Part shown: in pieces, positions 8,640 to 34,358 of the stretch
Position numbering within the stretch: the stretch's first letter is position 1
How the letters are laid out: each line of letters starts with the position of its first letter
Assembly: GCA_020073545.1 (NCBI GenBank)
Contig: JAIQEZ010000045.1
Coordinates: 1-35,114, forward strand
Direction: 5' to 3'
DNA length: 35,114 nt
From: Terriglobia bacterium
GTDB lineage: Bacteria; Acidobacteriota; Terriglobia; UBA7540
Made by a program: the position numbers and the translations under genes
The notes under the pieces: model-generated
What the model saw: the letters and a program-made list of their open reading frames with translations, nothing else
Told to the model about the DNA's origin: nothing
The model's database searches: none

Positions 8640-8651
8640 GGCAGTCCTCCT

Positions 8652-8843: not shown

Positions 8844-8849
8844 GGTGAC

Positions 8850-9266: not shown

Positions 9267-9307
9267 AGCGTGCCTCCTTTCTGTGTATTCCGGTTGTTGC
9301 GTGACCT

Positions 9308-9326
9308 GAACCATAATGTGGCCGCG
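9308..9326 (-). promoter_or_regulatory. CCACATTATGG element upstream of the DUF1257 operon
   Basis: On the minus strand this reads CGGCCACATTATGGTTC, about 45 bp before the first start codon of the operon. The same ten bases CCACATTATG recur before the primase gene (12347-12356), in a cluster of direct repeats at 11185-11310, and once inside a coding region (14135-14144). It may be an operator, or a copy of an insertion-sequence terminal repeat. Confidence 0.4.
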
Positions 9327-9730: not shown

Positions 9731-10867
9731 ATGGAAAGGCTCCGTGTATTAAGAAAAAAAGTCGTGCGTCATGCTCAACAGGCCCTCGCTGGCTTCTCAA
9801 CATACTTGCAAAGTAGCCCGGACAGGCTCGCTAAACTTCTTCGCAAGGCTGACGAGCGCATCAAATCCTTTCCTGGCATTGAAAGTGACCGCACTCGGCT
9901 CAAAAGCGAAATCGAGGCTGCCGAGGTCGAGATCAACCTTCTCCGCTCTGTCGAGGGAACTGTGCAGGATGTCCCTGTGCCGCGGGAAACGTTTTCCCAT
10001 CTGAAACACATCTTGAACCCCAAGCGTTACGTACCCGATGCGCTCAAGGGATTGGCCGAACGGATAGCACAACTTGGTGGAGACCAGGAGATTATCCAGC
10101 TTCGGGTGTCGCCGGAGGAAGCTGCGACTCTGCTCGAGGGGATCCCACGATATGGCAGTATCCTCTCTTACTTCCCCGAGCGACCGCCGAGAATGCTGCC
10201 TCAACCCGATGGATCGGAACTTGAAAGGGAACCGTGGCGCTGGGTATGCAACCTCAAGCCTGGGCGCAGCCTGATGGGTCCCACTCTAGGCGCCCCCGGA
10301 ACGGAACCCGTGCTCATCTGCTCGCCAAGGGAAACTGGTTCGCACCGGCCCGGTGGAACCTTCTACCTTGTCGGGATTCGCAGCGCAGTAATGTGTGGAG
10401 CTGATCGGATTCTCGCCGAACTCGCCTCTCCAGGCTGGCCGCCATGGGGTGACCGCACAGGTCTGAAAAGGAGCCACATCGAGCTCTCGACGAACTCCGA
10501 GGTAAGGGTATACAAAACCTACCGGCCTGCGGTGCAATGGTTTGTAGCGCTCTGTGATGAAGCTTGCCGCGAAAACCCCGCCGCGTGTCGGACCAATGAA
10601 CCGCACTTTATAGAGAATCCCTCCTTCTCCTACAAAAGGCCCCTTACGCAGATCGAGGTGTGTATGCAAGGCACAATCAAACGAGTCATCCGCGATCGTG
10701 GATTTGGGTTCATTCGCTCCACTGATGGCCAAGAGGTGTTTTTCCACCGCAGCAGTCTTCAGCAACTGAATTTTGATGGGTTGAAAGAAGGCGAGACGGT
10801 AGAGTTTGAGATGGAGCGCGGCGAGAAAGGGCCACGGGCCACGAACGTCCGACCCAGTGCGAAGTAA
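9731..10867 (+). CDS. Unknown protein with C-terminal cold-shock domain
   Basis: A 378-residue protein. Residues about 15-75 are helical and charged, probably coiled coil. Residues about 80-305 are an unknown globular region with no motif I recognise. Residues 312-378 form a complete cold-shock domain with both RNA-binding strands, RGFGFIRS and EVFFHRSSL. The start has GGAGG 7 bp before ATG. The cold-shock part begins with Met encoded by ATG at 10664, preceded by GAGG, and is exactly the length of a free-standing CspA-type protein; a separate internal product is therefore possible. The fusion is unusual, as Csp proteins are normally alone. It is transcribed away from the DUF1257 operon. Confidence 0.7.
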   Translation: MERLRVLRKKVVRHAQQALAGFSTYLQSSPDRLAKLLRKADERIKSFPGIESDRTRLKSEIEAAEVEINLLRSVEGTVQDVPVPRETFSHLKHILNPKRYVPDALKGLAERIAQLGGDQEIIQLRVSPEEAATLLEGIPRYGSILSYFPERPPRMLPQPDGSELEREPWRWVCNLKPGRSLMGPTLGAPGTEPVLICSPRETGSHRPGGTFYLVGIRSAVMCGADRILAELASPGWPPWGDRTGLKRSHIELSTNSEVRVYKTYRPAVQWFVALCDEACRENPAACRTNEPHFIENPSFSYKRPLTQIEVCMQGTIKRVIRDRGFGFIRSTDGQEVFFHRSSLQQLNFDGLKEGETVEFEMERGEKGPRATNVRPSAK

Positions 10868-10907
10868 TTCCCCGGTCTTTTCGACATCCCACAGAAAAGC
10901 CGGAGGG

Positions 10908-10925
10908 CCTGCCTGCGCAGGCAGG
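10908..10925. repeat. Perfect 18-bp palindrome
   Basis: CCTGCCTGCGCAGGCAGG is fully self-complementary with no loop. It lies 40 bp after the cold-shock gene stop and is not followed by a T-run, so it looks more like a REP-type palindrome than an intrinsic terminator. Confidence 0.55.
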
Positions 10926-11184
10926 TCTCAAAGGCAGAGGCTCTGCGCTACCCCGCTTGATGCGCACCCGGAAAAAACCTTGCCAGTTTCTGAGCGCCGG
11001 GGCGTCGTTGGAGCGGACAGCGCCCTAGTCGTAGAGGTGCAACCCCTGACTCCCTCGAAGTTGGCTTCGAGGACGCGTGCATGATTGCAGGCCTCGCCGG
11101 CGGATAGCTCCCCTGTAAGGCCGCAGGATTTACTCACGCTCAAGTAGAACCGAGGGTAACGTCAAACGATAGCCGAAATTCTGT

Positions 11185-11310
11185 ACTCCCGGCCAGGATA
11201 TGATTCAAATCCAAACTTCCGGCCACATTATGATTCAAACGGACTTCCCACAGCCCGGGAGCACGGGGAAGAAGCGGGGTTTGAGGGTCACGACGGCCAC
11301 TTTATGATTC
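11185..11310. repeat. Three direct repeats of a CGGCCA-N-TATGATTC element
   Basis: Copies begin at about 11190 (CGGCCAGGATATGATTC), 11220 (CGGCCACATTATGATTC) and 11294 (CGGCCACTTTATGATTC). The first two are 30 bp apart, close to three helical turns. The third overlaps the last codons of the primase gene. Multiple short repeats of this kind occur at the ends of IS21-family elements; alternatively they are binding sites. The rest of the 10868-11287 gap shows no gene I can support. Confidence 0.5.
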
Positions 11311-12310
11311 CATTCGTAGCCATTTGTTCGTTCAAGTCACAATCAGGCAGAACTGGCCGCGGGCAGCCCACTGCGGCCCGAATCATGTCTCTCGTGCAGC
11401 CAGCCCAGCAGATGTACTTGCGAGGGTCCTCGATCGAGATCGAGAGGTTATCTGCGCTGCGGTCGTGCCCCTCTTCGGCGCAGGATGGGCACCGGGTGAT
11501 ATTGTTGTGCCCCACTGTGCGGAGCTTGGTGTGGATGTGCTCGAGGATCCGGAATTCGGACCCACCCGTGTGTCTCCTCATCTCCGGTTCAGCCTTCGGC
11601 TCTGGTGGCAGGAACTGAGGTGGATTGGCTTTCCCCGCAATCAATCCGGCAAGCTGGTCACCGGTCATCTTGGGAAGCGAATTCAGGTAGCACATCTGCT
11701 TCTCAAGATCTTCATCGGCACCGTCAAACCAGAAGCGCTGAGCCGCGCCCCGGTGAATGCCCAGCGGCCCACGGATGGCATTGCCGTACCTGCCGGGCTT
11801 CAACGCATCGTGCTTGGGGAAGACCTCGATTCCTTCCCGCCGCTTGCCTCCCTTGACCGGGATACCCAACCGCAGGGCAAGGCCGCAAATGTAGATGCGG
11901 CAGTCCCGCGCTGGGAGCGGTTCCGCCATGAATATCCAGAGATGTCCGCCACGATGGCTTTTCTCAAGAGCCGACTCCACCCCATCCTGCCTGAGGTAGA
12001 AGCTGAGCTTGAGGAGATCCGTAAGCGCATCCCAATAGTCCGCGTCGATGGCCATCCACTTCGAGCACTGGGTGGCAGGGTTGATCGAGTAGAGGCCGAT
12101 GGTGATTTCGCCTTCGAGGTGCCGCCGGATTGTGTCCAGCGTCAGGCTCAGCCCCTGGCCGGTTTTCTTGTCCTTGGGGCGGTAGTAGTAATGCCGGCCA
12201 TTCTCCGCGTGCGGTCGGTTGGACTGAAGGGTGTAGGCCCGGCGGTTGACGAAGAGGCGGAAGTAGTCCGCCACCACAGTGGCGGGCGCTCTAAGGCGAA
12301 GCATTGGCAT
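11288..12310 (-). CDS. TOTE-type archaeo-eukaryotic primase with zinc finger
   Basis: A 340-residue protein. The N-terminal two thirds match the primase of TOTE conflict systems: the metal-binding motif hhhDhD appears as WMAIDADYW, the catalytic histidine motif as EKSHRGGHLWIFM, and the third motif as EVFPKHDALKPGRYGNAIRG. A C-terminal module with CPSC and CWAGC about 27 residues apart forms a CHC2-type zinc finger as in DnaG primases. The ATG at 12310 is chosen over one at 12349 because GGGAGGAG lies just before it. Unlike full TOTE proteins there is no fused helicase or nuclease. The last residues overlap a repeat also present downstream, so the C-terminus may have been reshaped by an insertion. 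Role: primer synthesis or repair within the island. Confidence 0.8.
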   Translation of the reverse strand: MPMLRLRAPATVVADYFRLFVNRRAYTLQSNRPHAENGRHYYYRPKDKKTGQGLSLTLDTIRRHLEGEITIGLYSINPATQCSKWMAIDADYWDALTDLLKLSFYLRQDGVESALEKSHRGGHLWIFMAEPLPARDCRIYICGLALRLGIPVKGGKRREGIEVFPKHDALKPGRYGNAIRGPLGIHRGAAQRFWFDGADEDLEKQMCYLNSLPKMTGDQLAGLIAGKANPPQFLPPEPKAEPEMRRHTGGSEFRILEHIHTKLRTVGHNNITRCPSCAEEGHDRSADNLSISIEDPRKYICWAGCTRDMIRAAVGCPRPVLPDCDLNEQMATNGIIKWPS

Positions 12311-12345
12311 TCTCTCCTCCCGGAAGTCAGGTGGAGGACACATCT

Positions 12346-12357
12346 CCATAATGTGGG
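12346..12357 (-). promoter_or_regulatory. CCACATTATGG element before the primase gene
   Basis: Eleven bases identical to the element before the DUF1257 operon, located about 37 bp upstream of the primase start and within the 84-bp gap after the membrane-protein gene. Equivalent position and orientation relative to two start codons favour an operator shared by the two operons. Confidence 0.4.
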
Positions 12358-12394
12358 TGGTAAAACGAGAGGAATTCTCTGCCGAATAGACCGG

Positions 12395-12871
12395 CTAGAG
12401 GCTCAGTAGGTAATCAAAGGCGGACAGGTTGCCGAAGCGGACGGAATTTATACGCTTGCCCACGACGTTGGCGAAGTACTGGAGAATCGCGGTCAGCTTC
12501 AGGATAGCGGGTTTTTCGCGCAGTCGGAGCCAACGCCGGGTGATCAGGGAAACGAAGACTAGGCGGAAGCACAACATCACGAACCGCTCTTCAAGCGAAT
12601 AGCGCTGGTTCACGTTGGCGGCATTCCTGAGCAGATAAGTGAGTGCCCGGAAATCGCACTTGAGGCTCATCTGAAGCTGGAGGGAGTCGAAGGGCGCGTT
12701 CATTTCTTCCAACGCCTCACGCACGGCAGGAAACTCCAGGCGGTTGGCCTTGACTATGCTCAGGAAGTACTCCCGGTCGAATTGGCGGCGCAGGATGGTT
12801 TGGAGGGTGCCCTGCAGATAGAAGAAGAAGAGCGCGGTAGAGAGGATCAAGATTAGGGCGGCCAGGACCAT
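12395..12871 (-). CDS. Small membrane-anchored protein of unknown function
   Basis: A 158-residue protein. The first 22 residues are a strongly hydrophobic helix (VLAALILILSTALFFFYL) that would anchor it in the inner membrane, with the remainder a basic, helical cytoplasmic part rich in Arg and Leu. A GAGGT ribosome site precedes the ATG by 5 bp. I recognise no family. It lies between the recombination-factor-like gene and the primase gene on the same strand and may belong to their transcription unit. Confidence 0.62.
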   Translation of the reverse strand: MVLAALILILSTALFFFYLQGTLQTILRRQFDREYFLSIVKANRLEFPAVREALEEMNAPFDSLQLQMSLKCDFRALTYLLRNAANVNQRYSLEERFVMLCFRLVFVSLITRRWLRLREKPAILKLTAILQYFANVVGKRINSVRFGNLSAFDYLLSL

Positions 12872-13126
12872 CGTTTACCTCACTCAAGCTTCCAGTTCTA
12901 CCGGGACCGCGGTCACACACAAAACCATGCCGGCGCGGCGCCGCTGGAGCATTCGCTATCGTGGCCAGCTTAAAGGGGAACGCCAAGGTTGGCAACAGTA
13001 CGGGGGTACCGCCTGCCGTGCTCATCCTCATGCAAGCTGAGAAGTTCCGTCCGCTCATTTGGGCAAGATTGTTGACGCGCTAGGGGTTCAAATGGAGGTC
13101 AACGTAGGGAAGAAAAGCACTCGTGG

Positions 13127-14362
13127 TCAGTGCGTTGCGCCAGCGAGGGCTGACGCCATGAGGTCAGTGGCCGCCTGCAGCTTCGGGATATCAGCCTCCG
13201 TCATGCCGCCGACATCACCGTACTTGAAGGTGCCACCACTTGCCCATTCGACCACTTCCCCGATCGCTTGCTTCTTGGTCGTGGCAACTCGCCGTGCTGC
13301 CGTCAGGAAATCGTTGCGAAGCTGGTTGAACCCCGAACTTGCAGCCGACCCGTTCCCATTGTTCTGCGTAGGAGGTAAGGCGGCCTTGTCGGCGGGTGTC
13401 TTGCCCGACCCGTTCGCGCCATTCGGGGCAGTGTCGCTGTCGAAGGACGAAGGCTTCGTCGTCGGCTGCGGTGCGGTAGGGGCGGGGAGCGTATCGGAAG
13501 GAGAACCTGACGCGGCGCCTTCGCCGGCCGCAGAGCCATTCAATGACGCCGGATAGAACTCCGCCACGACCTCTGGCGCCTGCTCTTGCTCGTCCTCTAC
13601 CACGTCCAAGACCTTGCCACCCGACCCGAGCAGCTTTCGAGTCTCGGCAAACAGCCGTGCGTTCTCAGTCAGGTTAGCGATAAGTTTCCGCATGTCGTCG
13701 CCTTCGACCTCGAGACTCAGCGCCCAGATGGATGATGTCTTCTTTCTCTTCTCCTTGCGGTCGAAGTACGTGGCCTCCTCCGGGCGAACGGTCAGCTTGG
13801 CCGTGATCCCGGCCAGGCGACCGCCCGTGAAAGTCTGGATCTCCTGCAAGGCGGAGTGGATCTGGCGAATGGATCGGTAAGAGCACGTGTGGATGCGGCA
13901 GACACTCCCCAGCCGGGGGAAGTCCGCCAACACGAAGCGTAGGTCGCCACCCGGTTTGCACTGTCCACTCGAAAGCTCTGGACAACCGCTGCCGCAGTGG
14001 GTCCATGGCTGTCCGCTAGGCTTTTCAGCCGTGCGCCGAGTAGCCGAGGTCCCGTCACCCCAGCACTTCCGTTCGGTGGCCGTCCACCAGGCATAGGAAC
14101 TGGGAAAGACGTTCTCGATGTCATCATCGATCAACATAATGTGGAGTTCGCGGCACTCGTCTCCGTAATGCTCGATCAGTTCCGGATCGACTTCCCACCC
14201 AACCCGGTTGGCTGACTTCTTCTTGCGCAGGAAGACGAAGTGGTCGAGCTTGGTGGGATAGTTGTGGTCTCCATTGGGTGGCAGGCCGATGGAGACCTTG
14301 GTGGATACGGACAGCCGCTGGACGACACGACCGTCTTGGTCGTGCGTAACACCAATGATCAT
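13127..14362 (-). CDS. Recombination directionality factor-like protein (Gp3 type)
   Basis: A 411-residue protein with GAAGGAGG before its ATG. The first 220 residues resemble the Gp3-like recombination directionality factor family of serine-integrase phages and conjugative elements: a segment ELHIMLIDDDIENVFPSSYA, a Cys cluster (C100, C123, C127, C135), then LRFVLADFPRLGSVCRI and a block ending in a conserved basic patch and W-A-L-S-L-E-V. Residues about 265-345 are a low-complexity Ser/Pro/Gly/Asn linker, followed by a helical C-terminal domain of about 65 residues. Known members control integrase direction; other annotated relatives are called 'hydrolase or metal-binding protein'. No integrase is visible in the window, so the partner is either outside it or lost. 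Confidence 0.6.
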   Translation of the reverse strand: MIIGVTHDQDGRVVQRLSVSTKVSIGLPPNGDHNYPTKLDHFVFLRKKKSANRVGWEVDPELIEHYGDECRELHIMLIDDDIENVFPSSYAWWTATERKCWGDGTSATRRTAEKPSGQPWTHCGSGCPELSSGQCKPGGDLRFVLADFPRLGSVCRIHTCSYRSIRQIHSALQEIQTFTGGRLAGITAKLTVRPEEATYFDRKEKRKKTSSIWALSLEVEGDDMRKLIANLTENARLFAETRKLLGSGGKVLDVVEDEQEQAPEVVAEFYPASLNGSAAGEGAASGSPSDTLPAPTAPQPTTKPSSFDSDTAPNGANGSGKTPADKAALPPTQNNGNGSAASSGFNQLRNDFLTAARRVATTKKQAIGEVVEWASGGTFKYGDVGGMTEADIPKLQAATDLMASALAGATH

Positions 14363-14961
14363 GGGGATTCCTCCTTCGCAGGATCAATTCCCTGCCAGTT
14401 CTCCCACAGGAAATGGGCTTCAGAGTGCTAATCCTGTTTCAGAGGTAGGAAGGTACTGACTGCGGCTTCTCGAACGATTCTGGGTCCGTAGAGGCCCCTT
14501 TCTGTGGGGAGTCAGAGGGCGTAATGCGTTCTCCCGAGAGTTCTGGAAGTTCCGGTTTGCTCCTTCCCGGCGTGACTTCGGATCGTCCGACCACTTATCG
14601 ACATATTCATTCATGGATTCGCCCGTGGACGTGCTCGTTCCATAACCTGATGAGACCGCCTGCGCGCCGTTTCTGAAGGTCCCAGGCCGATACTGGCCGC
14701 TAGCAGCGGCAGCGGGATACCCGAATTGCGGTTCGTGGCAGATTTCGATGACGGAGGAGACAGGGAAGGAAAGGTGGCTGAGAAATCGGTAAGATGAGGC
14801 AGTTCCCAGTCTCGCTTACCCGGGAGAGGCAAGGCATGCTCTCTCATGGCATACCGACACCCTGCCAGAGGAAAGGAGTGGTCGCAACGGCTTGGCTTGA
14901 GCGTATACTGTGCGCATCTAGAAAGCCCAAATGGAAATTCTCGTCGAAAGGAGGCATTGTG
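14363..14961. other. Intergenic region without a recognised gene
   Basis: About 600 bp between divergent genes. A TATACT box near 14904-14909 could serve as a -10 element for the lipoprotein gene, but a matching -35 is not clear. The open frames here have no recognisable similarity and atypical composition. It may be a junction between the island's DNA-metabolism genes and a cargo gene. Confidence 0.45.
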
Positions 14962-15480
14962 GTGTTCAGCCAAAACTACCAGAGAATAAAGTATCTACTG
15001 CTCTTGACGCCCGTCGTCGCACTGATTCTCGCGCTGGCCGGATGCCAGCAGCCACCAGCACCTCAAGCGCCGGACACAAGGGCCGCAGATGAAACTGCCA
15101 TAAGGGCCGCTGAGGCCGAAATGGCAAAGGTCGTGGGCGCCTTGGACGCGGCGAAGGCGGTGAGCTTCTATACCGACGACGTCGTCGTCATGGCCGTGGA
15201 TGCTCCCGTGGTCCAAGGCAAGGAGAACATGCAGAAGTACTTTGAAACGTGGATGAAAGAGAAACCGGAATTCTCGGTTAACACGGCGAAGGCCGAGGTT
15301 GCCCGGTCCGGTGATCTCGCCTACACCTGGGGCACCGGAAAAATGAGTGTCAAAGACAAGAAAGGCAAGGTTGCCGAAACCACCTTCAAATACGTCAGCG
15401 TGTGGAAGAAGCAGGCGGACGGGGGCTGGAAGATTGTGGTCGACACGATGATTCCTGATCCTCCTGAAACGAAAAAGTAA
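14962..15480 (+). CDS. DUF4440/SnoaL-like lipoprotein
   Basis: A 172-residue lipoprotein. The signal peptide has a basic start, a hydrophobic stretch LLLLTPVVALILALAGC and a lipobox LAGC, giving a lipid-modified Cys at about residue 28. The mature part has the NTF2-like DUF4440 pattern: D-E-x-A-I-x-x-A-E, then F-Y-T-D-D-V-V-V-M, a GKENMQKYFE helix, and a C-terminal strand KYVSVWKKQADGGWKIV. The GTG at 14962 is chosen because AAAGGAGG lies 7 bp before it; the frame is open upstream but that portion is not signal-like. NTF2-like lipoproteins usually have unknown ligands. It converges with the ligase gene. Confidence 0.8.
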   Translation: MFSQNYQRIKYLLLLTPVVALILALAGCQQPPAPQAPDTRAADETAIRAAEAEMAKVVGALDAAKAVSFYTDDVVVMAVDAPVVQGKENMQKYFETWMKEKPEFSVNTAKAEVARSGDLAYTWGTGKMSVKDKKGKVAETTFKYVSVWKKQADGGWKIVVDTMIPDPPETKK

Positions 15481-15511
15481 GAAGCCGCCGATCATGGACA
15501 AACGTCGTACC

Positions 15512-15540
15512 GGCGGGTGGCGCGTTCATCACCACCCGCC
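15512..15540. terminator. Probable bidirectional terminator hairpin
   Basis: GGCGGGTGG and CCACCCGCC form a perfect 9-bp GC-rich stem with an 11-nt loop, located between the convergent lipoprotein and ligase genes. It is followed by a pyrimidine-rich CTTCTCTC rather than a clean T-run. Confidence 0.6.
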
Positions 15541-15590
15541 CTTCTCTCAAGGTCACGCCACCTAATCCTTACAGCAGTAGTAAAGAGGTG

Positions 15591-17168
15591 TTACCAACGG
15601 TAATCCGCATTCATACGGAGTTTCCGGTTTGAGCCAAAAGAGTGTGCTCTCGGTCTCCCCGGGTCTTTACCTGCCAGGCTTTCTGAATACATAAGCAGGC
15701 CAGCTTCTGACCGACTGGGGTGAAACCGCACGAACACTCCTGCCCGTATTGCTCCGCTCTCATTGACCGTCAAAGCTCTCACTTCGGCGATCTGACCCGT
15801 CAGCACTTGACGGAGCTCCCAAATCCACCGCCTCTGTTCATTGGTCAGCTGGAAGGAACCAATCTGGCTCTCTACCCCGGTCGGTCCTTCCACAACCATG
15901 GCTCCCAGGCTGCCCCCGAACTTCCCCGCACCTTCAATGCAACGTGTGACTCTTACATCGAGGGTGTCATTCGCCTTGACCTTGAACCACTGGTCCACGG
16001 AATCCCGGTACTTCACGACCACGCCTTCGCTCCAAGGCAGGCCGCGGGGATCGTGGATGATGGCGCGATGGAACTCCACAGGGTCACCGCCTTCCGGCAT
16101 GGCCGGAACGACATGGAGATGCCTGTTGAACAGGCGGATCTCCGCGATCACGGCTTCATAGAGCTCACGCCGCTGTCCATAGGGCATCTGGCTGAGGTCC
16201 CTGCCGTTGAACTTTGCAATGTCCCAGGCGTAGAACTCGACCGGACCTCGCTCCTGCTGAATCCGGATGGACTTCTCGGGCAGGGCATTCAGGATTCCGC
16301 CCACGCGGGCGGCTCCGTCCGGATGGTGAAGCTCACCCCGCAACACGGTTCCTTCCTGCTCGGGGCCTGGGAAGAGCCTGCGGGCCAGCCACACGGGAGA
16401 GCGATTGCGGAGGTCTTCGATGGCCAGGAGCTTATCGTAGTAAGACTCTCCTTCCGGCCGATGGCTGCGATAAACAGCCCGCAGGTTGTGGATCGCCACA
16501 TTCGCGAGGCTGCCATCGTCTTTCCATTCGACGCTGACCGGGCGATCGGATTGGCGGAGGGTCTTGAGGAAATCTGGCGGTTCCAGGTGAATATCCGGTT
16601 TCGCGACCAGAACAGAATTGTCCTTCAGGCGGACAACCAGATACCGGTTCTTCTCGAAGGCTTGCCGGAAGGCATAGCGTCCCTTGAGGACACCGCTTGG
16701 AATGTTGACCTCAAAGGATTCCGTGTGTGGGTCAACTCCTTCGGCAACGAAGTCATAGTGGAAGCCTGCCTTCTCGGCATCGCGTTCGTGAACATTGATC
16801 TTGCCAAGCTGGCAGCTCCCACCGACCTTGATGACGCCCGTGCCGGAGTAGATCAGCCTCTTTTCACCCTTTCCGTAGCCTTCCTCGATGACCCCGTCGA
16901 AGTCATCCACAGAGTGAGGCCCATTCTCAACTGCCAGGGTTCTGGGCCGCTGATCGGTGGGCAGACCTTTCTTCAGGGTGAACTTGGCGTATTCCTTCCC
17001 GGTCCGCGGGCCTGCCAGCAGAGCGCCATCCACTGCTTTCTTCTGCAGGGCACGATTCAAGGCCAGTTGCCGGGTTCCGAGCGGCTGGGGCGTACCCAGA
17101 AGTTCCTTCGCCCTGCCGAGCGCAACTCCGAACAGCAGCCTTTCCCGAGTCGCTAAATCCTTGCTCAA
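15591..17168 (-). CDS. ATP-dependent DNA ligase with permuted LigD-type phosphoesterase-like domain
   Basis: A 525-residue enzyme. The ligase part has the nucleotidyl-lysine motif EWKDDGSLA (K216), motif III RGEL, motif IIIa EFYAWDIAKFNGRDL, motif IV SEGVVVKY and motif V WFKVKAN, followed by an OB fold with FGGSLGAMVV. Before it, residues about 55-190 resemble the LigD 3'-phosphoesterase domain, but in altered order: the DFDGVIEEGYGKG block (89-101) comes before the HYDF block (137-140), whereas LigD has HYDF first. The Arg that normally follows HYDF is replaced by Val. Start is a TTG overlapping the stop of the TonB receptor gene by 4 bases (TTGA), with only a weak AAGG upstream. No LigD polymerase domain is fused, but the island encodes a separate primase. 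Probably a nick- or break-sealing enzyme. Confidence 0.82.
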   Translation of the reverse strand: MSKDLATRERLLFGVALGRAKELLGTPQPLGTRQLALNRALQKKAVDGALLAGPRTGKEYAKFTLKKGLPTDQRPRTLAVENGPHSVDDFDGVIEEGYGKGEKRLIYSGTGVIKVGGSCQLGKINVHERDAEKAGFHYDFVAEGVDPHTESFEVNIPSGVLKGRYAFRQAFEKNRYLVVRLKDNSVLVAKPDIHLEPPDFLKTLRQSDRPVSVEWKDDGSLANVAIHNLRAVYRSHRPEGESYYDKLLAIEDLRNRSPVWLARRLFPGPEQEGTVLRGELHHPDGAARVGGILNALPEKSIRIQQERGPVEFYAWDIAKFNGRDLSQMPYGQRRELYEAVIAEIRLFNRHLHVVPAMPEGGDPVEFHRAIIHDPRGLPWSEGVVVKYRDSVDQWFKVKANDTLDVRVTRCIEGAGKFGGSLGAMVVEGPTGVESQIGSFQLTNEQRRWIWELRQVLTGQIAEVRALTVNESGAIRAGVFVRFHPSRSEAGLLMYSESLAGKDPGRPRAHSFGSNRKLRMNADYRW

Positions 17169-20100
17169 AAATGAACCTTCGCAGCGAACTCGAAGTCGCG
17201 CGGGTTGCCCGCGCTCGTAATCGTACCAAATGCCGCGGAACCGAAGCTGCCATTAGGATCGCTGAGCGGCGGCGTATTCGTGACGTTGAATACCTCGGCT
17301 CGAAACTCGAGGTTAACTCTTTCGGTGATTCGGAAGACTTTCCCTAGCATCAAGTCCGCATTCTGCAGGGCGGGTCCGCGCACCGGGTTGCGCGAGCTGG
17401 TCCCGATGGTAAACTGCGGCGCCGCCGTGAATGCCGCCCGGTTGAACCACTGTGCGATGGAGCGATTTGCGAAGTCGTTGGGATTGCTGATCCGGTTTGG
17501 GCGCTGTGTTCCGAATCCCAGATTAGAGTTGGAATTCGTGGCTTGAGAAATTGCGACCCGATCTCCTGCCTGGACACGAACCAGGCCGGAAATCTCCCAC
17601 CCGGAGATTTTCCAGATCTTCGGGATCTGGTACACCCACCCTGATGAGAAAACGTGCGGGATATCTCCCTGAGAAAAATCTCTTTCGAGTTTCAGATTGT
17701 TCGCGTCCGCGACGCCTGTGTTCAGTATAGGTCCAGTAAAGATGGTTTGCGAAAAGACACTCGAAGCGCTGTCCATCAGCTTGGACCACGTATAGGCAAA
17801 ACTGAAGGTCAGACCTTTCGAAAGGCGCTTCTCCAGCTTGGCCGCCAACGCGTTGTAACTGGAATTGCCGATATTGTCCCGAAACAAAGCGACCGTCGTG
17901 AATCGTGGAAATGGCCGCAACAATTGTTGCTGGGTGATTGTCGCACCACCAAGCGAGGACGACGCTGGAATCTGTCCAAAGAACGGGTTGGACACACGTT
18001 GCAGCAACTGCGATCCGAGCGAGAGATAATGGTCCGGAAGTTGATTGATGTTGGGGTCGGGAATGCCGAGGTTGGTGTTCTTGGAGCCCAGGTATCCCAC
18101 TTCCACATTGAGGTTCTTCCCGATCGTCTTCTGCACCGTAAGGTTCCATTGCTGGGAATAACCTGAAGCATGGTTTCGGTCCGTACCGAAGACGCCCTGT
18201 CCGAGTCCCGAGTTCGGATTCGGGGCCGCGACTTGCACGGTGGGGCCGCTGGCAAGCACGAAAGCTGGATGGATGTTGTCCTGTGACCGCTGTCCCACCG
18301 TCTGGACGAATGGAAACTGTGGCAGCGTGAACGGCGTCGTGATTCCACTTTGTTCGAACCAGATCATCCCATACCCCGCGCGAACTGCCCAGGAATTGCC
18401 GAGGCGGTAGGCCAATCCCGCACGAGGGCCGAAATCACAGCAGTCAAGATTGCGCGACGTACGCGGAAAATCCAGCACTTGCATTTGCAGGTTGAAGACA
18501 GCTCCCTGATTGTGGACCTCGGTCGATGGAAAGTTGAGGGTGTAGCGCGTCCCGAGGCTCAGCGAGAGCCGATCCGAAACTTTCCAGTCATCAACGACAA
18601 AAAACTCCGCGATGTGAGCGCGCTCCTGCAAAATCTGTTTCTGAATGTCGATCGTAAAAGAGTTCACATAGCCCAACAGCAGCGACGCCACCGCGTTCCC
18701 GGTGCCGGACGTGTTAAAAGTAAAACTGCCTGTAGGATTCGGAGGATTCAGCACGTCAAGCGCCTCGCGCCTGATGTCCGTTCCGAACTTGATCGTGTGC
18801 CTTCCGCGCACCATCGTGAATGTGTCCAGATACTCGGTAATCGATGTCGTGAAATTGCTGTTCGCTCCCGACGTGGGCCCGATCTGCTGAAAACCGGCAA
18901 CCGAGAAGATTGGCAAAACAGATGAGAAGGAGGTATCTGGAAGCCCCGCCACGGTGACGCCGCCGTTTTGCAATGATTTCTGATGCAAATCACGTCTGGT
19001 GTACCCGAATCGTGCCTGGTTCAACATCGTCGGCGACACGCTCCACTCGTAGGCCGCTGCGATGCCATCGCCTCGCGTAACTGCATGACCTGTGACTCCC
19101 GAGGTGATGCTCCCGCTTCCATCCGGCAACGGGGTGACCGGCGTGTCCTCGTCGCGAAAATACGAATAGCGCCCGAAAATACGATGATTGGAGCCAAGAT
19201 AGCGATCGATTCTAGTGTCGAACTGGTGCTGCCCATCCGGCTCTACCCCCGTGCGCGAGAAATTGTTTGCGGCTCTTGAGGTTGTCGGCGCTGGATAGTG
19301 CTGTAGTACTTGCTGTGCGACCAAATCAACTTTGTTCGCAGGTATGGTCGTAAACGATTGGCCGCTCACGGGATCGGTGACTGGCGTCGTGAAGATCCCT
19401 TGGCGCTGGGCAAGCGTGGGCACCGTGCTAATGCGAGTGACCGCGGTGCGCAGGCGAGAGCCTTGCCAGTCGGTAAAGAAGAAGGTTTTGCCTTTTTGAA
19501 TCGGCCCACCCAACGTGAAACCGTACTGATTGCGCCGGAATTCCGGCCTTGGACCAGGGGGCGCGAAGAGGTTCCTGGCGTTCAGGACCTCGTTCCGGAA
19601 GAACTCGAAGAGTGAGCCGTGCAGCGCGTTGCCGCCTGACTTGCTGTTGACCATGATCGTCCCGCCGTTGGAACGCCCGTATTCCGGGGAATATGCGTTG
19701 ATATTCAGACGGAACTCTTCGATCCCATCAATAATCGGAAAGAAGACCACCTGACCAGGCTCTGGTTGTAGTACGCTGATGCCGTCGTAAAGGTATTCGT
19801 TCGTCCGCGGGCGGCTGCCGTTAATCCGGGGGAGCACGGAGCCGCCGCCGGGAAGCGCCACTCCGGGCGATAGCGTGACCAGGGAGATGAAGTTGCGCCC
19901 GTCGAGCGGAAGATTAACGATCTTGGTCTGATCGACGTTGTGGCTGACCTCGCCCGTGGCGGTTTGCAGGAGCGGCGCTTCCGCAGTCACGTCTACGGAT
20001 TGTGCCTGTTCGCCCACTCTGACCTGGACGTCCAATTCGGTATGATCCGCAATGCGCAGAGTAATTCCAGACTGCCGGTAGGTGCGGAATCCAGGTTGCT

Positions 20101-30100: not shown

Positions 30101-30689
30101 GGCGTTATTTTCCTCCGGGATTCGCGTTTTCAACTCAGATTGCGCCCGGAATCCTACGCCCTTGGACTGGTCGAGGCAAGCTCAAACTCGCGGTCCCCTT
30201 TCGGGGCAACCATCGCCGCCCGTTTTGTCCCTCCTACGACTTCCGTGGTTTATTTTCCGCCCCCGACCTGCCTCGCCGACGATCCCGCCTGATTCTCCCG
30301 TCGAGCCTCAGGCTCAGCCCGGAGCCCTTCGTCTTTCTTGCCTTGTGCTCGACATCGAACACTGCTGCCGGATCCTGGAGATTGCACCGATTGCCCGTGC
30401 CGTCAGAACCGAATGGCGAAGCCGTGCGCAGAATCGTGTGTTCGCTTTTTATTCGCCGTGGTATAATGGAGTTTACAGGCTAGCGAACGTCGTCCGCACG
30501 ATTACGGTTCTGGTAGCGTTCGCGAGACGCGCCAACTACTATTTGAACCCCTTGTACGCGACGACCCGAGATTTGCGAGGGTAGATAGATTCCACTACAA
30601 TTGTTCCGTAATCGAGGCACGCGGGCAAGTTGATACACTGCTTCCGTGAAAATCGAGCTTCCAGCTAAATTGGAGGAGGACTCTTGACC
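30101..30689. other. Intergenic region upstream of the three-gene operon
   Basis: About 590 bp between divergent genes. No protein is supported. A TATAAT box occurs near 30461-30466 and a better -35/-10 pair near 30573-30601 (separate entry). The left part must hold the promoter of the glycosidase-like gene. Confidence 0.5.
30573..30601 (+). promoter_or_regulatory. Sigma-70-type promoter for the three-gene operon
   Basis: TTGCGA and TACAAT are separated by exactly 17 bp, about 90 bp before the first start codon of the operon. Both hexamers differ by one or two bases from the consensus. It gives the operon its own promoter, separate from the neighbouring metabolic genes. Confidence 0.5.
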
Positions 30690-32045
30690 GTGAAGCGACA
30701 AGTGTGGACGAACCCATCTGTCCTGGCGCTGGCGGGTGATTCCGATCCCGTTCAGGCCATCACCGAAAGAGCGCAATCTAAGGCGGTCGGGGCCATCCAG
30801 GACGGGTGGTCAGGGCCGCCTTACGATCCGTTTGCATTGGCTGAGTACCTGAATGTTGCAGTCGTTGCCCGTGAAGATATTCCTGAAGCCAGAACCGTCT
30901 CCTCGCGTGCCGGGTACATCATCGAGTTCAATCCTAACCGTCCGCGCAATCGCGTTAAATACTCCATATGCCATGAACTTGCGCACACACTGTTTCCCGA
31001 TTGTGCTGACAGGGTACGGAGTCGTCTCACGCACCGCGACATGAAGGGTGACGAGTGGCAGTTGGAAACGCTGTGCAACATTGGGGCGGCCGAACTGCTG
31101 ATGCCGATAGGCAGTACTCCTTCCCTCGAGGGTGGACGGCTCACGATTGACGCGATACTTGAAGCTCGCAAGCGGCACGAAGTGTCCGCCGAGGCCGTTT
31201 TGCTCCGAGCAGTGCGCCTCACGGCTGACCAATGCTGCGTGTTCAGTTCGTCCCGGCGCCTCTTATCGGGAGGCCGCGAGCGCTACTTGATCGACTACGC
31301 TATTGGTTCGCGCGCCTGGACCGGAGCCGTCAGCGCCGGTGCGGCTCTACCAGGGGCGACAGTTGCCAGCCAGTGCACCGCAATCGGCTATACAGCTAAG
31401 GGACACGAGGCATGGGACACGGTCGGCACTGTCCGGGTCGAGTGTTTAGGTGTGCCGCCATATCCGAACCACATATACCCGCGCGTTCTGGGGATTATCA
31501 GACCGGAAAAGCAGACTCCCGTTGATATCGCAGAGATCACGTACCTTCGCGGTGATGCGAGCCGACCACGCGGGAGCGGTCCGCGTATCCTCGCCCAGAT
31601 CGTGAATGACAGCGCATTTACCTGGGGCGGCGGCTTTTCTCTTACAGTTCGCGAAAAGTGGCCGGTCGCGCAGAAAGCGTTCCGTGCCTGGGCCGAGCGT
31701 GAACGCCGCAACCTGCGGCTAGGCACTGTTCACGTCGGGGTCGTGGATGAGAACCTTGCGGTGGTGAGCATGATCGCCCAGCATGGGTACGGTCCGTCAC
31801 CGAAGCCTCGCATCCGGTATATGGCTTTGAAGGCATGCCTCGAACGCTTGGGTAGCGTCGCGGCAGAGCGCGGTGCGACGGTACACATGCCCAAGATTGG
31901 CTCCGGCCAAGCCGGCGGTTCGTGGAATATCGTCCGCGAATTCGTAGACGGGGCTGTGTGTGCTCGTGGCGTGAAGGTTTTTGTGTATGAGCTACCCGGC
32001 GGGCCTGGCCCTTCGCACCCGCAGGCGACGCTTGAGTTTTCGTAA
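30690..32045 (+). CDS. ImmA/IrrE-type metallopeptidase fused to DarG-like macro domain
   Basis: A 451-residue two-domain protein. Residues about 35-180 form an ImmA/IrrE (DUF955) zinc peptidase: HELAH at 95-99 and the third ligand Glu at about 135 in AAELLMP. ImmA cleaves phage-type repressors, IrrE a DdrO-type repressor. Residues about 285-435 match the macro domains of DarG/ALC1 type: ITYLRGDAS, ILAQIVNDSAFTWGGGFSLT, VSMIAQHGYG, RIRYMALKACLERL and VHMPKIGSGQAGGSW. Such domains bind ADP-ribose and remove it from nucleic acid or protein. The GTG at 30690 is chosen because GGAGGAGGA lies 9 bp before it; a TTG at 30684 is too close. It is first in a tight operon with a PurA/PurZ-like and a DarT-resembling gene. 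Confidence 0.85.
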   Translation: MKRQVWTNPSVLALAGDSDPVQAITERAQSKAVGAIQDGWSGPPYDPFALAEYLNVAVVAREDIPEARTVSSRAGYIIEFNPNRPRNRVKYSICHELAHTLFPDCADRVRSRLTHRDMKGDEWQLETLCNIGAAELLMPIGSTPSLEGGRLTIDAILEARKRHEVSAEAVLLRAVRLTADQCCVFSSSRRLLSGGRERYLIDYAIGSRAWTGAVSAGAALPGATVASQCTAIGYTAKGHEAWDTVGTVRVECLGVPPYPNHIYPRVLGIIRPEKQTPVDIAEITYLRGDASRPRGSGPRILAQIVNDSAFTWGGGFSLTVREKWPVAQKAFRAWAERERRNLRLGTVHVGVVDENLAVVSMIAQHGYGPSPKPRIRYMALKACLERLGSVAAERGATVHMPKIGSGQAGGSWNIVREFVDGAVCARGVKVFVYELPGGPGPSHPQATLEFS

Positions 32046-32061
32046 TCGGCTGGAGCTTCGT

Positions 32062-33681
32062 GTGGCAAAAAGGATAATCGTTCTTTCGGGTCGAGTTTCA
32101 GCAGGCAAGAGCACGCTGGCGGACGCCCTGGAGGAACAGTTCGATGCGAATGTCCTCAACACGAAAAAAGTGATCACTGACACCGCGAAGGGTAAACTGG
32201 ATGCCGAACGCGGCGCACTTCAGCGCTTCGGAGATGTTCTGGACGACAAAACGGACGGGGAGTGGGTCGCGAATGCGCTTACTCGGCTGGTAGAGTCACT
32301 TCCCGCGGACGCGGTTGTCGTCGTTGATTCCGTGCGGATCACCGAGCAGGTGGACGCAATCCGGCGTGCTTACGGTCCTCGGGTAGTTCATGTTCACTTG
32401 GACGCAGACCTGACTGTTCTGGCGGAACGATATAAACGCAAGCAGCGACAAAGCAAATTCCGAGAGTTCAACTCGTACTCTCAGCTTTCAAACAACAAGA
32501 CAGAGATGCGCGTTGAGCTGCTTGCCAAGACCGCGGACGTGTTAATCAAAACGGACAACTGTACGAAAGCGGACGTGGTTGTCAGGGCCGCTTCGCGGCT
32601 CGGGCTGTACGGCCGCGAGCATCGGCAACTCGTGGACGTACTCGTTGGCGGGGCATACGGAAGTGAGGGCAAGGGCCACATCGCTTCGTACTTAGCTCCA
32701 GAGTACGACATTCTAATTCGTGTGGGCGGCCCAAACGCGGGGCACAAGGTTTTTGAGGATCCTGCGCCCTACGTGCATTACCTTCTACCCTCTGGAACGC
32801 GGCGCTGTAACGCAGCACTGATGATCGCGCCCGGTGCTGTCCTGAGTGTGCCGCAGCTTCTCCAAGAAATCGCCGACTGTCACGTCAGCAAGGACCGCCT
32901 GGCGATTGACCCGCATGCCATGATCATTGAGGAAGAGGACCGGAAGTTCGAGGAATCTACTTTAGTCGGCAGTATTGGATCGACGGGCCAGGGGGTCGGT
33001 GCGGCCACAGCCAGGAAGATTCTGCGCGGGGCAGTGCCCCCCGCAATCCGGCTCGCAAAGAACGCGGCAGAACTGAAGCATTTCGTCCGCGATACTCGCA
33101 GCATCCTCGACAAAGCTTTCCGCGACGGGAAGAAGGTATTTCTCGAGGGCACGCAGGGAGTCGGGCTCAGCCTCCATCACGGATCGTATCCGCACGTCAC
33201 ATCTCGCGACACAACCGTTTCGGGCTGTTTGTCTGAAGCTGGGATTCCACCAAGCCGCGTCCGCAAGGTCGTAATGGTCTGTCGCACCTATCCCATCCGC
33301 GTGAAAAGTCCTTCGAGAAAACGGAGCTCCGGCTTTATGGCGCAGCCACTCACATGGGACGATGTTGCCGCCCGTTCAGGGTACAACGCGCGTGAGCTAG
33401 AACGGGCAGAGCACACCTCCACGACGAATAAGCTCCGCCGTGTCGGCGAATTTGAGTGGGACTTGTTCCGGCGCGCAGTCTCGCTCAACGGGCCGACGGA
33501 CATCGCCCTGTCCTTTGCCGATTACATTAACCGCGGCAACACTGAAGCGAGGCGGTTCGACCAGCTCACCCTCGAGACGATTCGGTTTATCGAGGAACTT
33601 GAACGAGTTGCGTTTGCGCCAGTGTCCCTGATTTCCACTCGATTCAACTACCGTAGCATCATCGATCGTCGCTCCTGGTGA
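32062..33681 (+). CDS. P-loop nucleotide kinase fused to PurZ-like adenylosuccinate synthetase
   Basis: A 539-residue fusion. Residues 1-185 are a nucleotide-kinase-like P-loop domain (GRVSAGKST at 10-18; VVVVDSVR near 86-92 as Walker B region). Residues 190-539 are a complete adenylosuccinate-synthetase homologue: GGAYGSEGKG (196-205), GGPNAGH (222-228), GSTGQGVGAA, FLEGTQGVGLSLHHGSYPHV and RRVGEFEWDLF. In PurA the P-loop reads GDEGKG and its Asp is the catalytic base; here it is Ser (201), as reported for PurZ enzymes that act on dGMP in the 2-aminoadenine pathway. The PurA guanine-binding TKLD is replaced by SFAD, arguing against GTP use. GTG start with GGAG 6 bp upstream, 16 bp after the previous gene; the next gene overlaps by 4 bp. 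Confidence 0.85.
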   Translation: MAKRIIVLSGRVSAGKSTLADALEEQFDANVLNTKKVITDTAKGKLDAERGALQRFGDVLDDKTDGEWVANALTRLVESLPADAVVVVDSVRITEQVDAIRRAYGPRVVHVHLDADLTVLAERYKRKQRQSKFREFNSYSQLSNNKTEMRVELLAKTADVLIKTDNCTKADVVVRAASRLGLYGREHRQLVDVLVGGAYGSEGKGHIASYLAPEYDILIRVGGPNAGHKVFEDPAPYVHYLLPSGTRRCNAALMIAPGAVLSVPQLLQEIADCHVSKDRLAIDPHAMIIEEEDRKFEESTLVGSIGSTGQGVGAATARKILRGAVPPAIRLAKNAAELKHFVRDTRSILDKAFRDGKKVFLEGTQGVGLSLHHGSYPHVTSRDTTVSGCLSEAGIPPSRVRKVVMVCRTYPIRVKSPSRKRSSGFMAQPLTWDDVAARSGYNARELERAEHTSTTNKLRRVGEFEWDLFRRAVSLNGPTDIALSFADYINRGNTEARRFDQLTLETIRFIEELERVAFAPVSLISTRFNYRSIIDRRSW

Positions 33682-34358
33682 GTTTGCCTATGACCGTGGA
33701 CCAGCTCATATTGCATTACCCGTGCGTCTACCACATGGCGAACGCAGGCACTTGGGAATCAATGCGGCAGCGAGGTCTGCTGAGCACCACTGCGCTCCTT
33801 GACCTCTTCGGGATCGACGGAGAGGAGAGGTATCGGATCGAAAGTTGTCACCGACGACAATCAATCGAGATCACTAGCCCTCACTGTGGAACTGTCGTCA
33901 TCCGTGACCAGGCGCCAATGCGGGAGAGTGTCCTTAAGAAGTGTCTCGACGGCATCAGCCCACGCGAATGGTACGAGTTATTGAACCGGAAGGCGTTTTT
34001 CTGGGCGACGGATGCTCGCGTCCAGACGCTATTGGGGGCGAAGCTGTACCGGAACCAGGAGCACACCGTAATAACTGTTGACACGGCGAGTCTCCTTGCC
34101 CAGCATGCACGCCGTGTGACTTTGTCACCCATCAACTCCGGTAATACACTCTACAATCCCCGTCCACGCGGACGCCACACTTTTCGCACAATCGCTGACT
34201 ACCCCTTCGAGGAACGACGGAAGAAGCGGGGCCTCGCCAATGCCGTTGTCGAACTGGCGGTGGAATATTCCGTCCCCGATCTAATCAGTCATACGACTGC
34301 GGTTGAACTCAGACGCGGTGACGAAATTCTGCAGACCATATATTCTCGAGCCCGCTAG
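33678..34358 (+). CDS. DUF7002-like protein, DarT-resembling fold suspected
   Basis: A 226-residue protein starting at GTG overlapping the previous stop by 4 bases (GTGA); an in-frame ATG at 33690 is an alternative. Motifs match what I recall of DUF7002: YHMANAGTWESMRQRGLLST, then GTVVIRDQAPM, PREWYELLNRKAFFW, VDTASLL, SPINSGNTLYNPRPRG and a C-terminal VVELAVEYSVPDL. The opening Y-H-M-A-x-x-x-x-W-x-S-[MI]-x-x-x-G-L-L-S strongly resembles the NAD-binding start of DarT and RNA 2'-phosphotransferase-type ADP-ribosyltransferases (YHIT...I...GL), and the late Glu in VVELAVE could be the catalytic Glu. ART activity is inferred. Together with the macro-domain gene at the operon head it forms a plausible writer/eraser pair. 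Confidence 0.75.
   Translation: MSLPMTVDQLILHYPCVYHMANAGTWESMRQRGLLSTTALLDLFGIDGEERYRIESCHRRQSIEITSPHCGTVVIRDQAPMRESVLKKCLDGISPREWYELLNRKAFFWATDARVQTLLGAKLYRNQEHTVITVDTASLLAQHARRVTLSPINSGNTLYNPRPRGRHTFRTIADYPFEERRKKRGLANAVVELAVEYSVPDLISHTTAVELRRGDEILQTIYSRAR

Follow-up and report, generated by a model that had tools for sequence, protein, structure and literature searches.

The operon and its genes

The subject of this analysis is a three-gene operon on contig JAIQEZ010000045.1 of a Terriglobia bacterium of the Acidobacteriota (assembly GCA_020073545.1). The window that we analyzed, of 35,114 bases, is the entire contig. The three genes, here designated A, B and C, encode a fusion of a metallopeptidase to a macrodomain, a fusion of a domain resembling nucleoside monophosphate (NMP) kinases to a synthetase of the PurZ type, and a member of the family DUF7002 whose predicted fold is that of an ADP-ribosyltransferase (ART). 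The features of the operon are as follows.

30573..30601, forward strand: weak sigma-70-like promoter match, TTGCGA-17-TACAAT, 9/12 match
30684..32045, forward strand: gene A, M78 (ImmA/IrrE-type) metallopeptidase–macrodomain fusion, 453 amino acids, TTG start
30867..31208, forward strand: M78 peptidase domain of gene A, residues 62-175 (PF06114, 30.2 bits, cut-off 22; PADLOC capP, 2e-18)
30972..30986, forward strand: zinc motif HExxH of gene A, H97-H101, from aligned homologues
31524..31997, forward strand: macrodomain of gene A, residues 281-438, SCO6735/BT1257 type, from PDB matches and alignment to SCO6735
32062..33681, forward strand: gene B, NMP-kinase-like domain plus PurZ-type synthetase, 539 amino acids, GTG start
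32062..32616, forward strand: predicted kinase domain of gene B, residues 1-185, Walker A motif GRVSAGKS (AlphaFold2 model, predicted local distance difference test, pLDDT, 94.3)
32632..33678, forward strand: PurZ-type domain of gene B, residues 191-539, from profile, PDB, residue and tree comparisons
32662..32664, forward strand: Ser201 codon of gene B, PurZ-diagnostic, replacing the catalytic Asp13 of PurA, from residue comparison
33678..34358, forward strand: gene C, DUF7002, DarT-like ADP-ribosyltransferase fold, 226 amino acids from GTG or 222 from the ATG at 33690
34251..34253, forward strand: Glu188 codon of gene C (counted from the ATG at 33690), candidate catalytic glutamate, invariant in 66/66

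The TTG start codon of gene A is preceded by GGAGGAGGA. Genes A and B are separated by 16 nucleotides, and genes B and C overlap by 4 nucleotides when gene C is read from its GTG codon. These coordinates agree with those of an earlier note, made from the sequence alone, that had proposed the three genes as a candidate conflict system. The overlap stands as the note read it, but the start of the homologues of gene C corresponds to the ATG at 33690, and hence the overlap may be unused. The note had also credited the operon with a promoter of its own, which is weak: it comes down to the single 9/12 match at 30573-30601, and with three such matches found in the region against 1.5 expected, that match is not clearly above chance.

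Gene B encodes a kinase joined to a PurZ-type synthetase

The product of gene B matches the Pfam family Adenylsucc_synt with an E value of 2.1e-51, and in the residue that is diagnostic for PurZ it departs from PurA. The column of the catalytic Asp13 of PurA holds serine in all 87 kinase–PurZ copies compared (78 genome loci, eight plasmids and the window; one locus, L049, was excluded because its gene B is split) and in 7/7 phage PurZ/PurZ0 sequences, and it holds aspartate in 13/13 PurA controls, including the host's own enzyme. A 2026 survey of Z phages reports serine at this position in 147 of 147 phage PurZ sequences (PMC12884076). Five further pocket columns are identical across kinase–PurZ, phage PurZ and PurA and do not discriminate among them. 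The loop that follows the PIRV motif contains an insertion in kinase–PurZ, as it does in phage PurZ, and this insertion, which is lacking in PurA, has been tied by crystallographers to the deoxyribose pocket of PurZ (PMC8342488).

Tree building led to the same grouping. In a tree of 53 rows the 30 kinase–PurZ sequences formed a single clade (support 99/99), and kinase–PurZ, phage PurZ, PurZ0 and a Sinorhizobium PurZ-type protein were together set apart from PurA (100/98). Because both profile and PDB searches place gene B nearer to archaeal-type PurA, a second tree, with 17 kinase–PurZ rows, was built to include the short archaeal PurA 5k7x; the Ser-bearing group remained intact (100/100), and 5k7x fell outside it. 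The curated NCBIfam model of PurZ gave gene B a score of 209 bits, below its cut-off of 300. Since that cut-off is not reached and yet the Ser-bearing group holds with 5k7x in the tree, gene B is best classed, on sequence grounds, as a PurZ-type enzyme that lies outside the curated PurZ model.

That gene B might be an ordinary duplicate of PurA is ruled out by the serine at position 13 and by the presence of a separate PurA-like gene elsewhere in 25 of 25 genomes searched. The same 25 genomes dispose of the possibility, raised in the earlier note, that gene B always goes with ordinary purine genes.

The N-terminal domain of gene B scored 29.4 bits against the P-loop kinase family AAA_33 of Pfam (cut-off 27). 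Its best fold match was an adenylate-kinase-related protein with bound AMP (3lw7; Foldseek E value 2e-8; VIA Z score 19.2), and the domain models as an NMP kinase fold. It also resembles the P-loop part of the PADLOC model for anti-phage dCTP deaminase, PDLC02373 (E value 5.6e-6). The earlier note's guess that gene B is PurZ-like is borne out by the change from aspartate to serine and by the two trees, and we think it likely that the product of the fusion is a nucleotide of 2-aminoadenine (Z).

Gene C is predicted to have a DarT-like fold

Gene C belongs to DUF7002 (PF22531, E value 6.3e-69), which was the sole family to match it in profile searches. An AlphaFold2 model of DUF7002, for which we used an alignment of 66 rows (66 of 80 loci, with near-copies, fragments and plasmid loci left out), attained a pLDDT of 97.4. 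When this model was compared with the PDB by Foldseek, the best match, and the only one below 0.001, was DarT1 of E. coli (E value 8.9e-5, probability 1.00). DarT1 (8baq) was also first in VIA, with a Z score of 10.6 over 161 residues and a root-mean-square deviation of 3.3 Å, values that place the model in the DarT-type ART fold. The first nine VIA rows consisted of seven DarT entries and two Tpt1 entries (Z scores 8.9 and 8.8), with further ART toxins lower. The earlier note's guess that gene C is DarT-like is therefore supported by the model, for which DarT1 was the best match in both Foldseek and VIA.

Residues that are invariant in all 66 rows include H15, R55, R72, D73, Y120, N149 and E188 (numbered from the ATG at 33690). 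DarT1 requires E152, R52 and N104, the guanine being held by N104, and an assisting role for R52 has been proposed for D54 (PMC11543638). In DUF7002, R55, N149 and E188 occur in the same order as R52, N104 and E152 of DarT1, a correspondence of order only, as the alignment is too weak for a residue-by-residue match. An asparagine at a place like that of N104 could suit a purine target with a 2-amino group. From the model we consider it very likely that DUF7002 has ADP-ribosyltransferase activity.

DUF7002 was found in seven of 396 genomes of the window's phylum, in six of them above the cut-off. Judged by eye, the copies that lie outside the operon have no common partner. At one such locus (L164:3291-7276) DUF7002 directly follows a large protein with a SIR2-like start, and a search of 3.5 kb around the locus showed no kinase–PurZ gene (both by eye).

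Gene A joins an M78 peptidase to a macrodomain

The product of gene A scores above the cut-off of Pfam Peptidase_M78 (30.2 bits against 22) and has the HExxH motif, in keeping with the ImmA/IrrE-type peptidase that the earlier note had recognized. The M78 motif is intact among its homologues: H97 and H101 are conserved in 57/57 and E98 in 56/57 aligned sequences (57 of 65 clustered loci, with near-copies and fragments left out). In the PDB it matches IrrE with an E value of 9e-8.

The macrodomain is under the Pfam cut-off (13.6 against 22 bits), yet the solved macrodomains 2afc, 2fg1 and 5e3b match it at E values of 3e-30 to 6e-29. Its homology to the SCO6735 subclass (TARG1/ALC1-like) has an E value of 5.7e-29. 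SCO6735 removes thymidine ADP-ribose made by DarT, an activity for which Gln85 is essential, and it has been described as a genome protector with a damage-type promoter (PMC9411070). Q366 of gene A aligns with this essential Gln85 and is kept in 57/57 homologues, and V307 aligns with Val25 of SCO6735 and is kept in 56/57, the numbering having been counted by hand on the alignment. The earlier note had called the domain DarG-like; a macrodomain is indeed present, but it is of the SCO6735 type, and the DarG model scored 18.5 bits against a cut-off of 250. Because the M78 motif is intact and the equivalent of Gln85 is kept, the product of gene A probably has peptidase as well as ADP-ribosyl hydrolase activity.

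The trio is conserved across distant taxa

We scanned one genome per species from 84,980 species. The scan yielded 374 stretches with a relative of gene B, and from these we retained the 79 best loci. At these loci the homologue aligns to gene B essentially end to end, with 46-78% identity. Judging from the titles of the sequence records, the 79 loci span about ten phyla plus archaea: the bacterial hosts are Acidobacteriota, Planctomycetota, Verrucomicrobiota, Gemmatimonadota, Chloroflexota, Actinomycetota and several proteobacterial groups, together with Bacteroidota, a Synergistaceae bacterium and Eremiobacterota. Gene C lies directly downstream of gene B on the same strand in 73 of the 79 loci (68 by script and five corrected by hand), gene A immediately precedes gene B in 62, and 60 loci have the exact trio A-B-C (55 by script, the rest by hand correction). 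The idea that the trio is found only in this genome is rejected on these counts, and the conservation across distant taxa foreseen in the earlier note was found. The median gap between the stop codon of gene A and the first homologous residue of gene B is 19 nucleotides, and genes B and C are nearly contiguous. Pairwise protein distances at 53 loci are correlated (A-B 0.88, B-C 0.74, A-C 0.80, with 0 of 1000 permutations as high), correlations that partly reflect the kinship of the hosts. The grouping of A, B and C is not a matter of chance.

The hand-corrected loci were L072, L083 and L090, where the script had merged a second kinase gene, and L035 and L081, where tblastn had missed gene C. 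Gene C was counted as present in L033 (as a short open reading frame, ORF), in L094 (as two ORFs) and in L081 (where the copy is cut by the contig end). Elsewhere it is adjacent on the opposite strand (L060 and L091) or nearby (L084 and L048); none was found in L079, and the contig of L076 stops 47 nucleotides downstream of gene B. As for gene A, the stretch of L025 starts inside it, and the nearest copy in L038 belongs to a second unit. L038 (10001-15375) is an archaeal locus in which two kinase–PurZ genes, one with its own gene A, face each other around DUF7002. An inversion within the macrodomain interrupts gene A in L019 (8127-9917) and L150 and is either a real rearrangement or an assembly error.

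The system is scattered as well as widespread. It is present in three of 40 genomes of the window's order, that of the window included, and in none of eight other genomes of the genus (58-92% complete), as the earlier note's expectation of a varying location would have it. In one of the order's three, a member of the same family (L166:4758-7507), kinase–PurZ is interrupted by what by eye is a transposase-like ORF. The archaeal copies of kinase–PurZ are nested in the tree with those of Chloroflexota. A tblastn search of plasmids revealed eight full-length relatives of gene B, in Rhizobium, Agrobacterium, Sinorhizobium and Methylobacterium, and in all eight DUF7002 is directly downstream.

Defense genes are enriched beside the operon

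To what extent the operon keeps company with defense genes was assessed at 25 loci on large contigs, where the five nearest ORFs outside the system (125 proteins in all) were set against 124 control ORFs taken from the same contigs at a distance of about 200 kb. ORFs were called longest-first, so that both sets contain some false ones; ORFs of more than 1300 amino acids were left out of both sets, and one protein was dropped from the control set. At an E value of 1e-15 or less, 125 PADLOC models were matched near the system and three in the controls. Because PADLOC models overlap (one methyltransferase matches 15), these figures show a contrast and do not give the number of proteins. Among the first 25 of the 125 models are PDC-S19, PDC-S25 and mad2, as well as the methyltransferase and specificity subunits of type I systems. 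The number of distinct defense proteins is at least three, and at least ten if the matches to MTase_I (three), PDC-S19 (three), Specificity_I (two) and PDC-S25 (two) are different proteins; the control matches come from at most three proteins. The enrichment beside defense genes that the earlier note had called for was thus observed, at 25 loci against matched controls.

We also clustered the neighbors at 88 loci (the 79 genome loci, the eight plasmids and the window). Type I restriction genes occur at 12 of these, ThiF-like genes at eight and GajA-like genes at five, all named by eye from sequence. The closest relative of the window's operon (L017) is directly followed by a type I restriction system, whose methyltransferase is among the PADLOC matches. 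Five of the eight plasmids are typed as conjugative. Among the plasmid copies, L004 adjoins a pair that by eye and by Pfam is RADAR-like, L005 has SIR2/DUF87/SbcCD and AbiE genes beside it, and L006 and L016 have Gabija-like pairs (from gene order and annotation); L015 has mostly transporters around it. We regard a role in conflict as likely.

In the window itself, the stretch 6430-17652 has genes for an AAA ATPase domain, an AEP-TOTE primase and a Gp3-like recombination directionality factor, along with a ligase OB-like match below cut-off, and a tRNA-Ser(cga) gene at 17560-17652 lies near the end of this group. The stretch looks like an integrated mobile element, about 13 kb to the left of the operon.

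Kinase–PurZ also occurs in viral contigs

In a scan of IMG/VR, from which the best 80 of 238 relatives of gene B were kept, ten loci match gene B from residue 1-5 to residue 539. Three of the ten have gene C nearby, and two of these also have gene A. The other seven (L167, L168, L171, L172, L173, L175 and L178) have neither A nor C in the stretch searched, which for L175 includes only 1 kb of upstream sequence. A family-A DNA polymerase was identified by Pfam near the fusion in L168, L171, L172 and L178 (L173 is a near-copy of L171); the polymerases of L171 and L178 bear a UDG domain, and L171 also has genes for a DnaB-like helicase and a primase. Deoxyribosyltransferase–MazG-like proteins are encoded by the next gene in L175 and 2.6 kb away in L167; proteins of this kind are a helper type known from Z phages (PMC12884076). 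The diagnostic serine is kept in six of six checked of these seven copies. The viral copies were monophyletic in 0 of 200 bootstrap trees, although the well-supported branches are still compatible with one origin. The seven contigs that lack A and C are candidate Z-genome phages with a kinase-fused PurZ, and their setting is the best, if indirect, evidence that kinase–PurZ makes Z deoxynucleotides.

Pathway genes and variant loci

Genes for further steps of nucleotide metabolism accompany the core at some loci. Among the 88 loci, MazG/PRA-PH-like proteins are found at eight, all in Actinomycetota, a PurB-like lyase at four, a deoxynucleoside kinase at three, a DCD-like protein at three, an HD protein at nine and an extra copy of the kinase domain at six; one member of each of the MazG-like, PurB-like, deoxynucleoside kinase, DCD-like and HD clusters was checked against Pfam. 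The HD and MazG helpers have Atu1052 and DR2231 as their best PDB matches. The locus of the window has none of these six kinds of gene. In four of four genomes with a PurB at the locus, two PurB proteins are above the cut-off, one of them the locus copy; three tested genomes without a locus PurB each have a single strong match (311-325 bits, cut-off 326), the next being at most 76 bits. As a second strong PurB goes with the locus copy and is missing where that copy is missing, the locus PurB copies are dedicated.

Variant units were also noted. An alphaproteobacterial variant (L004-L008, L014-L016 and L092) consists of kinase–PurZ, DUF7002, a YfbR-like HD protein and a conserved 450-amino-acid protein without an informative Pfam match; no gene A was found in it. 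A protein of about 240 amino acids adjoins the unit at five Chloroflexota and four archaeal loci (L034, L040, L042, L044, L045, L050, L056, L066 and L080), and the one member scanned had no useful Pfam match. On a plasmid of Sinorhizobium medicae (L010:4296-8937) a stand-alone PurZ-type gene, with the serine kept, lies close to a PemK pair together with HD, DCD-like and ThiF-like genes; this may be a related system. A rhizobial plasmid (L009:4363-10617) has FolE, a PurA-type synthetase with the aspartate kept, PurB, QueE, QueC, IMP dehydrogenase and a nitrile hydratase subunit, which looks like a cluster for 7-deazapurine synthesis.

A conflict operon built on Z chemistry?

With the trio conserved and scattered and with defense genes enriched beside it, the earlier note's overall proposal of a candidate conflict system is supported. 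The reading that we prefer, with a probability of roughly 0.45, is that of a mobile conflict operon, probably anti-phage and abortive, that is built on Z-nucleotide chemistry. Kinase–PurZ would join aspartate to dGMP (or GMP) to yield succino-2-aminoadenylate, a step that is well supported by sequence. This compound would be converted by PurB, whether that of the host cell or a dedicated second one, to the monophosphate of Z, which the fused NMP kinase would then phosphorylate. DUF7002 would move ADP-ribose from NAD+ to a nucleic-acid base or a nucleotide, as its fold and conserved residues suggest. This transferase may modify the Z product itself, most likely by way of the 2-amino group, which Z has in common with guanine and which DarT1 uses; that Z is its target we find conceivable but would not bet on. 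DNA made during infection, or the Z nucleotide, would be poisoned by ADP-ribosylation. In uninfected cells the macrodomain of gene A would strip the ADP-ribose, and the M78 peptidase would sense damage or infection and release the system.

In its most specific form this becomes a two-step, base-marking immunity, which we put forward tentatively and with the odds clearly against it: the cell would make Z on demand, polymerases would insert it, the DarT1-like enzyme would ADP-ribosylate Z-DNA or Z nucleotides and so stop replication, and the macrodomain–peptidase would be both eraser and trigger. In E. coli, expression of a phage Z-cluster has a toxic effect and leads to Z in the host DNA (PMC8342488); an effector based on Z is therefore plausible even without the transferase.

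Several results weigh against the preferred reading. On the side of gene B, the archaeal-type PurA model PRK04293 of NCBIfam scored higher (271 bits, cut-off 368) than the PurZ model (209 bits, cut-off 300), and in the PDB search the short archaeal PurA 5k7x (4e-50) came ahead of PurZ of phiVC8 (6fko, 9e-36). On the side of gene C, the Foldseek TM (template modeling) score between DUF7002 and DarT1 is 0.48, DarT profiles do not detect DUF7002, and a DUF7002 profile run against PDB sequences reached DarT1 only at an E value of 0.12, in a weak N-terminal match too short for the mapping of residues. With Tpt1 (Z score 8.9) and other ART toxins close behind DarT, the fold is to be taken as ART first and DarT second. 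At 14 of 79 loci (among which L049 has a lone macrodomain match) no gene A was found in the stretch searched, and since the rhizobial loci have the HD protein and the 450-amino-acid protein instead, the macrodomain does not act as the eraser at every locus. Both the HD protein and the DCD-like protein fall narrowly short of their Pfam cut-offs, and an assignment of the HD and MazG helpers as DatZ and MazZ is unsupported: their best listed phage matches, among the best 30 of 281 records and the best 20 of 697, are general HD phosphohydrolases and MazG proteins. Neighbor clustering disclosed no conserved repressor gene, no profile search for helix-turn-helix or repressor families having been made. 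In the window, the genes that adjoin the trio include no defense family among the families scanned, and the AEP-TOTE primase gene is 18 kb away. Finally, the combined action of the parts, and any activity in defense, are what we infer.

The same parts could be wired as a signaling circuit, in which kinase–PurZ would make a rare purine nucleotide, the DarT-like enzyme would ADP-ribosylate that nucleotide or another small molecule, the macrodomain would bind the messenger and the M78 peptidase would be the effector. A peptidase followed by a macrodomain upstream of gene B (62/79), both with intact active sites, is as expected for a sensor-effector, and the best defense profile of the peptidase is that of CapP, which is a regulatory peptidase. 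But the retention of the hydrolase glutamine of SCO6735 in 57/57 homologues suggests cleavage over mere binding, and the 14 loci that lack gene A speak against the circuit, which we consider doubtful. Anti-phage dCTP deaminases and dGTPases deplete nucleotides, and the operon could likewise be imagined to drain the dGTP/dGMP pool in infection by means of kinase–PurZ and the MazG and HD helpers, with the transferase as a separate, second effector. The MazG-like, HD and DCD-like genes beside the core would fit such a function, as would the recurrence in defense of a kinase fused to a nucleotide-converting enzyme (PDLC02373, E value 5.6e-6). A dedicated second PurB and a deoxynucleoside kinase, however, fit the production of a nucleotide rather than its removal, and the viral fusion sits in replication or nucleotide modules; depletion thus appears unlikely to us.

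Two further explanations were considered. The operon could be a metabolic or DNA-repair operon on accessory DNA, serving purine salvage, antimetabolite synthesis or ADP-ribose repair, as might be suggested by the description of SCO6735 as a genome protector with a damage-type promoter (PMC9411070) and by the Asp-bearing PurA-type enzyme in the deazapurine-like cluster of L009. Its scattered occurrence (three of 40 genomes of the order), carriage on plasmids and defense-gene neighbors argue otherwise, as do the nesting of archaeal with Chloroflexota copies and the presence of a DarT-like partner, and we judge a role outside conflict to be quite unlikely. It seems to us very improbable that the operon is part of a Z-genome phage which has been domesticated, and which is retained because it confers resistance to restriction or helps in competing with Z phages. 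Viral contigs do carry the same fusion, and although their copies formed one group in none of the 200 bootstrap trees, a single origin is still compatible with them; but at the bacterial loci, where A and C are kept, no family-A polymerase turned up among the conserved neighbors, whereas seven of ten viral loci have neither A nor C.

Should the preferred reading of a Z-based conflict operon be confirmed, it would tie modified phage DNA to the ADP-ribosylation of nucleic acids, give DUF7002 a first role and add a candidate defense system. If base marking proves true, no cellular use of Z chemistry would, as far as we know, have preceded it, and no earlier ADP-ribosyltransferase would have had its target base supplied by the operon that encodes it. 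For the production of dZTP, a kinase-fused PurZ might in addition be a useful tool.

Relation to known systems

We know of no system that pairs Z-type nucleotide synthesis with a DarT-like enzyme. Among open-licence papers in PubMed Central, none mentions DUF7002 and none combines 2-aminoadenine, a toxin and ADP-ribosylation; no description of the operon was found among the matches listed from that collection, a search whose scope did not extend to preprints. The synthesis of Z has been described as phage biology, and the part of the 2026 survey that bears on this point places PurZ in phages and in four archaeal sequences (PMC12884076).

The operon shares with the phage Z-cluster a PurZ with serine for the catalytic aspartate, the loop insertion and a common tree group against PurA, and at some loci it has MazG-like, HD and PurB-like genes, of which the MazG and HD proteins are not specifically MazZ and DatZ. 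It differs in that its PurZ is fused to an NMP kinase and occurs in bacteria and archaea, and in that the conserved unit has no polymerase and has a transferase and a peptidase–macrodomain protein.

A comparable mixture of likeness and difference holds for DarTG1 (DarT1 with NADAR) and DarTG2 (DarT2 with DarG). The ART fold of DUF7002 is nearest to that of DarT, with DarT1 the best match, and gene A has a macrodomain from the TARG1/ALC1-like class, which reverses the thymidine marks of DarT2. The operon, however, lies below the cut-offs of DarT and DarG profiles, places a nucleotide-making enzyme between writer and eraser, and has the eraser fused to a peptidase. DarTG proper was considered and rejected: the DarT and DarG profiles miss the operon's proteins, and there is no DarG or NADAR partner, NADAR not being among the profile matches of genes A, B and C.

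M78 peptidases are known from the regulatory pairs CapP/CapH, ImmA/ImmR and IrrE/DdrO. Gene A resembles them in its HExxH motif and in its matches to capP (2e-18) and IrrE (9e-8), but the operon shows no repressor partner, and gene A has a C-terminal macrodomain. The anti-phage dCTP deaminase is a kinase–deaminase fusion and, like gene B, combines a P-loop kinase-like domain with a nucleotide-converting enzyme (model match 5.6e-6); the operon has instead a PurZ-type synthetase, and a transferase as its partner. Because the profile and partner tests for DarTG fail, and because the conserved unit is without a polymerase and has gained a writer and an eraser, we rate the operon as neither DarTG nor a phage Z-cluster and as a new system made of known folds.

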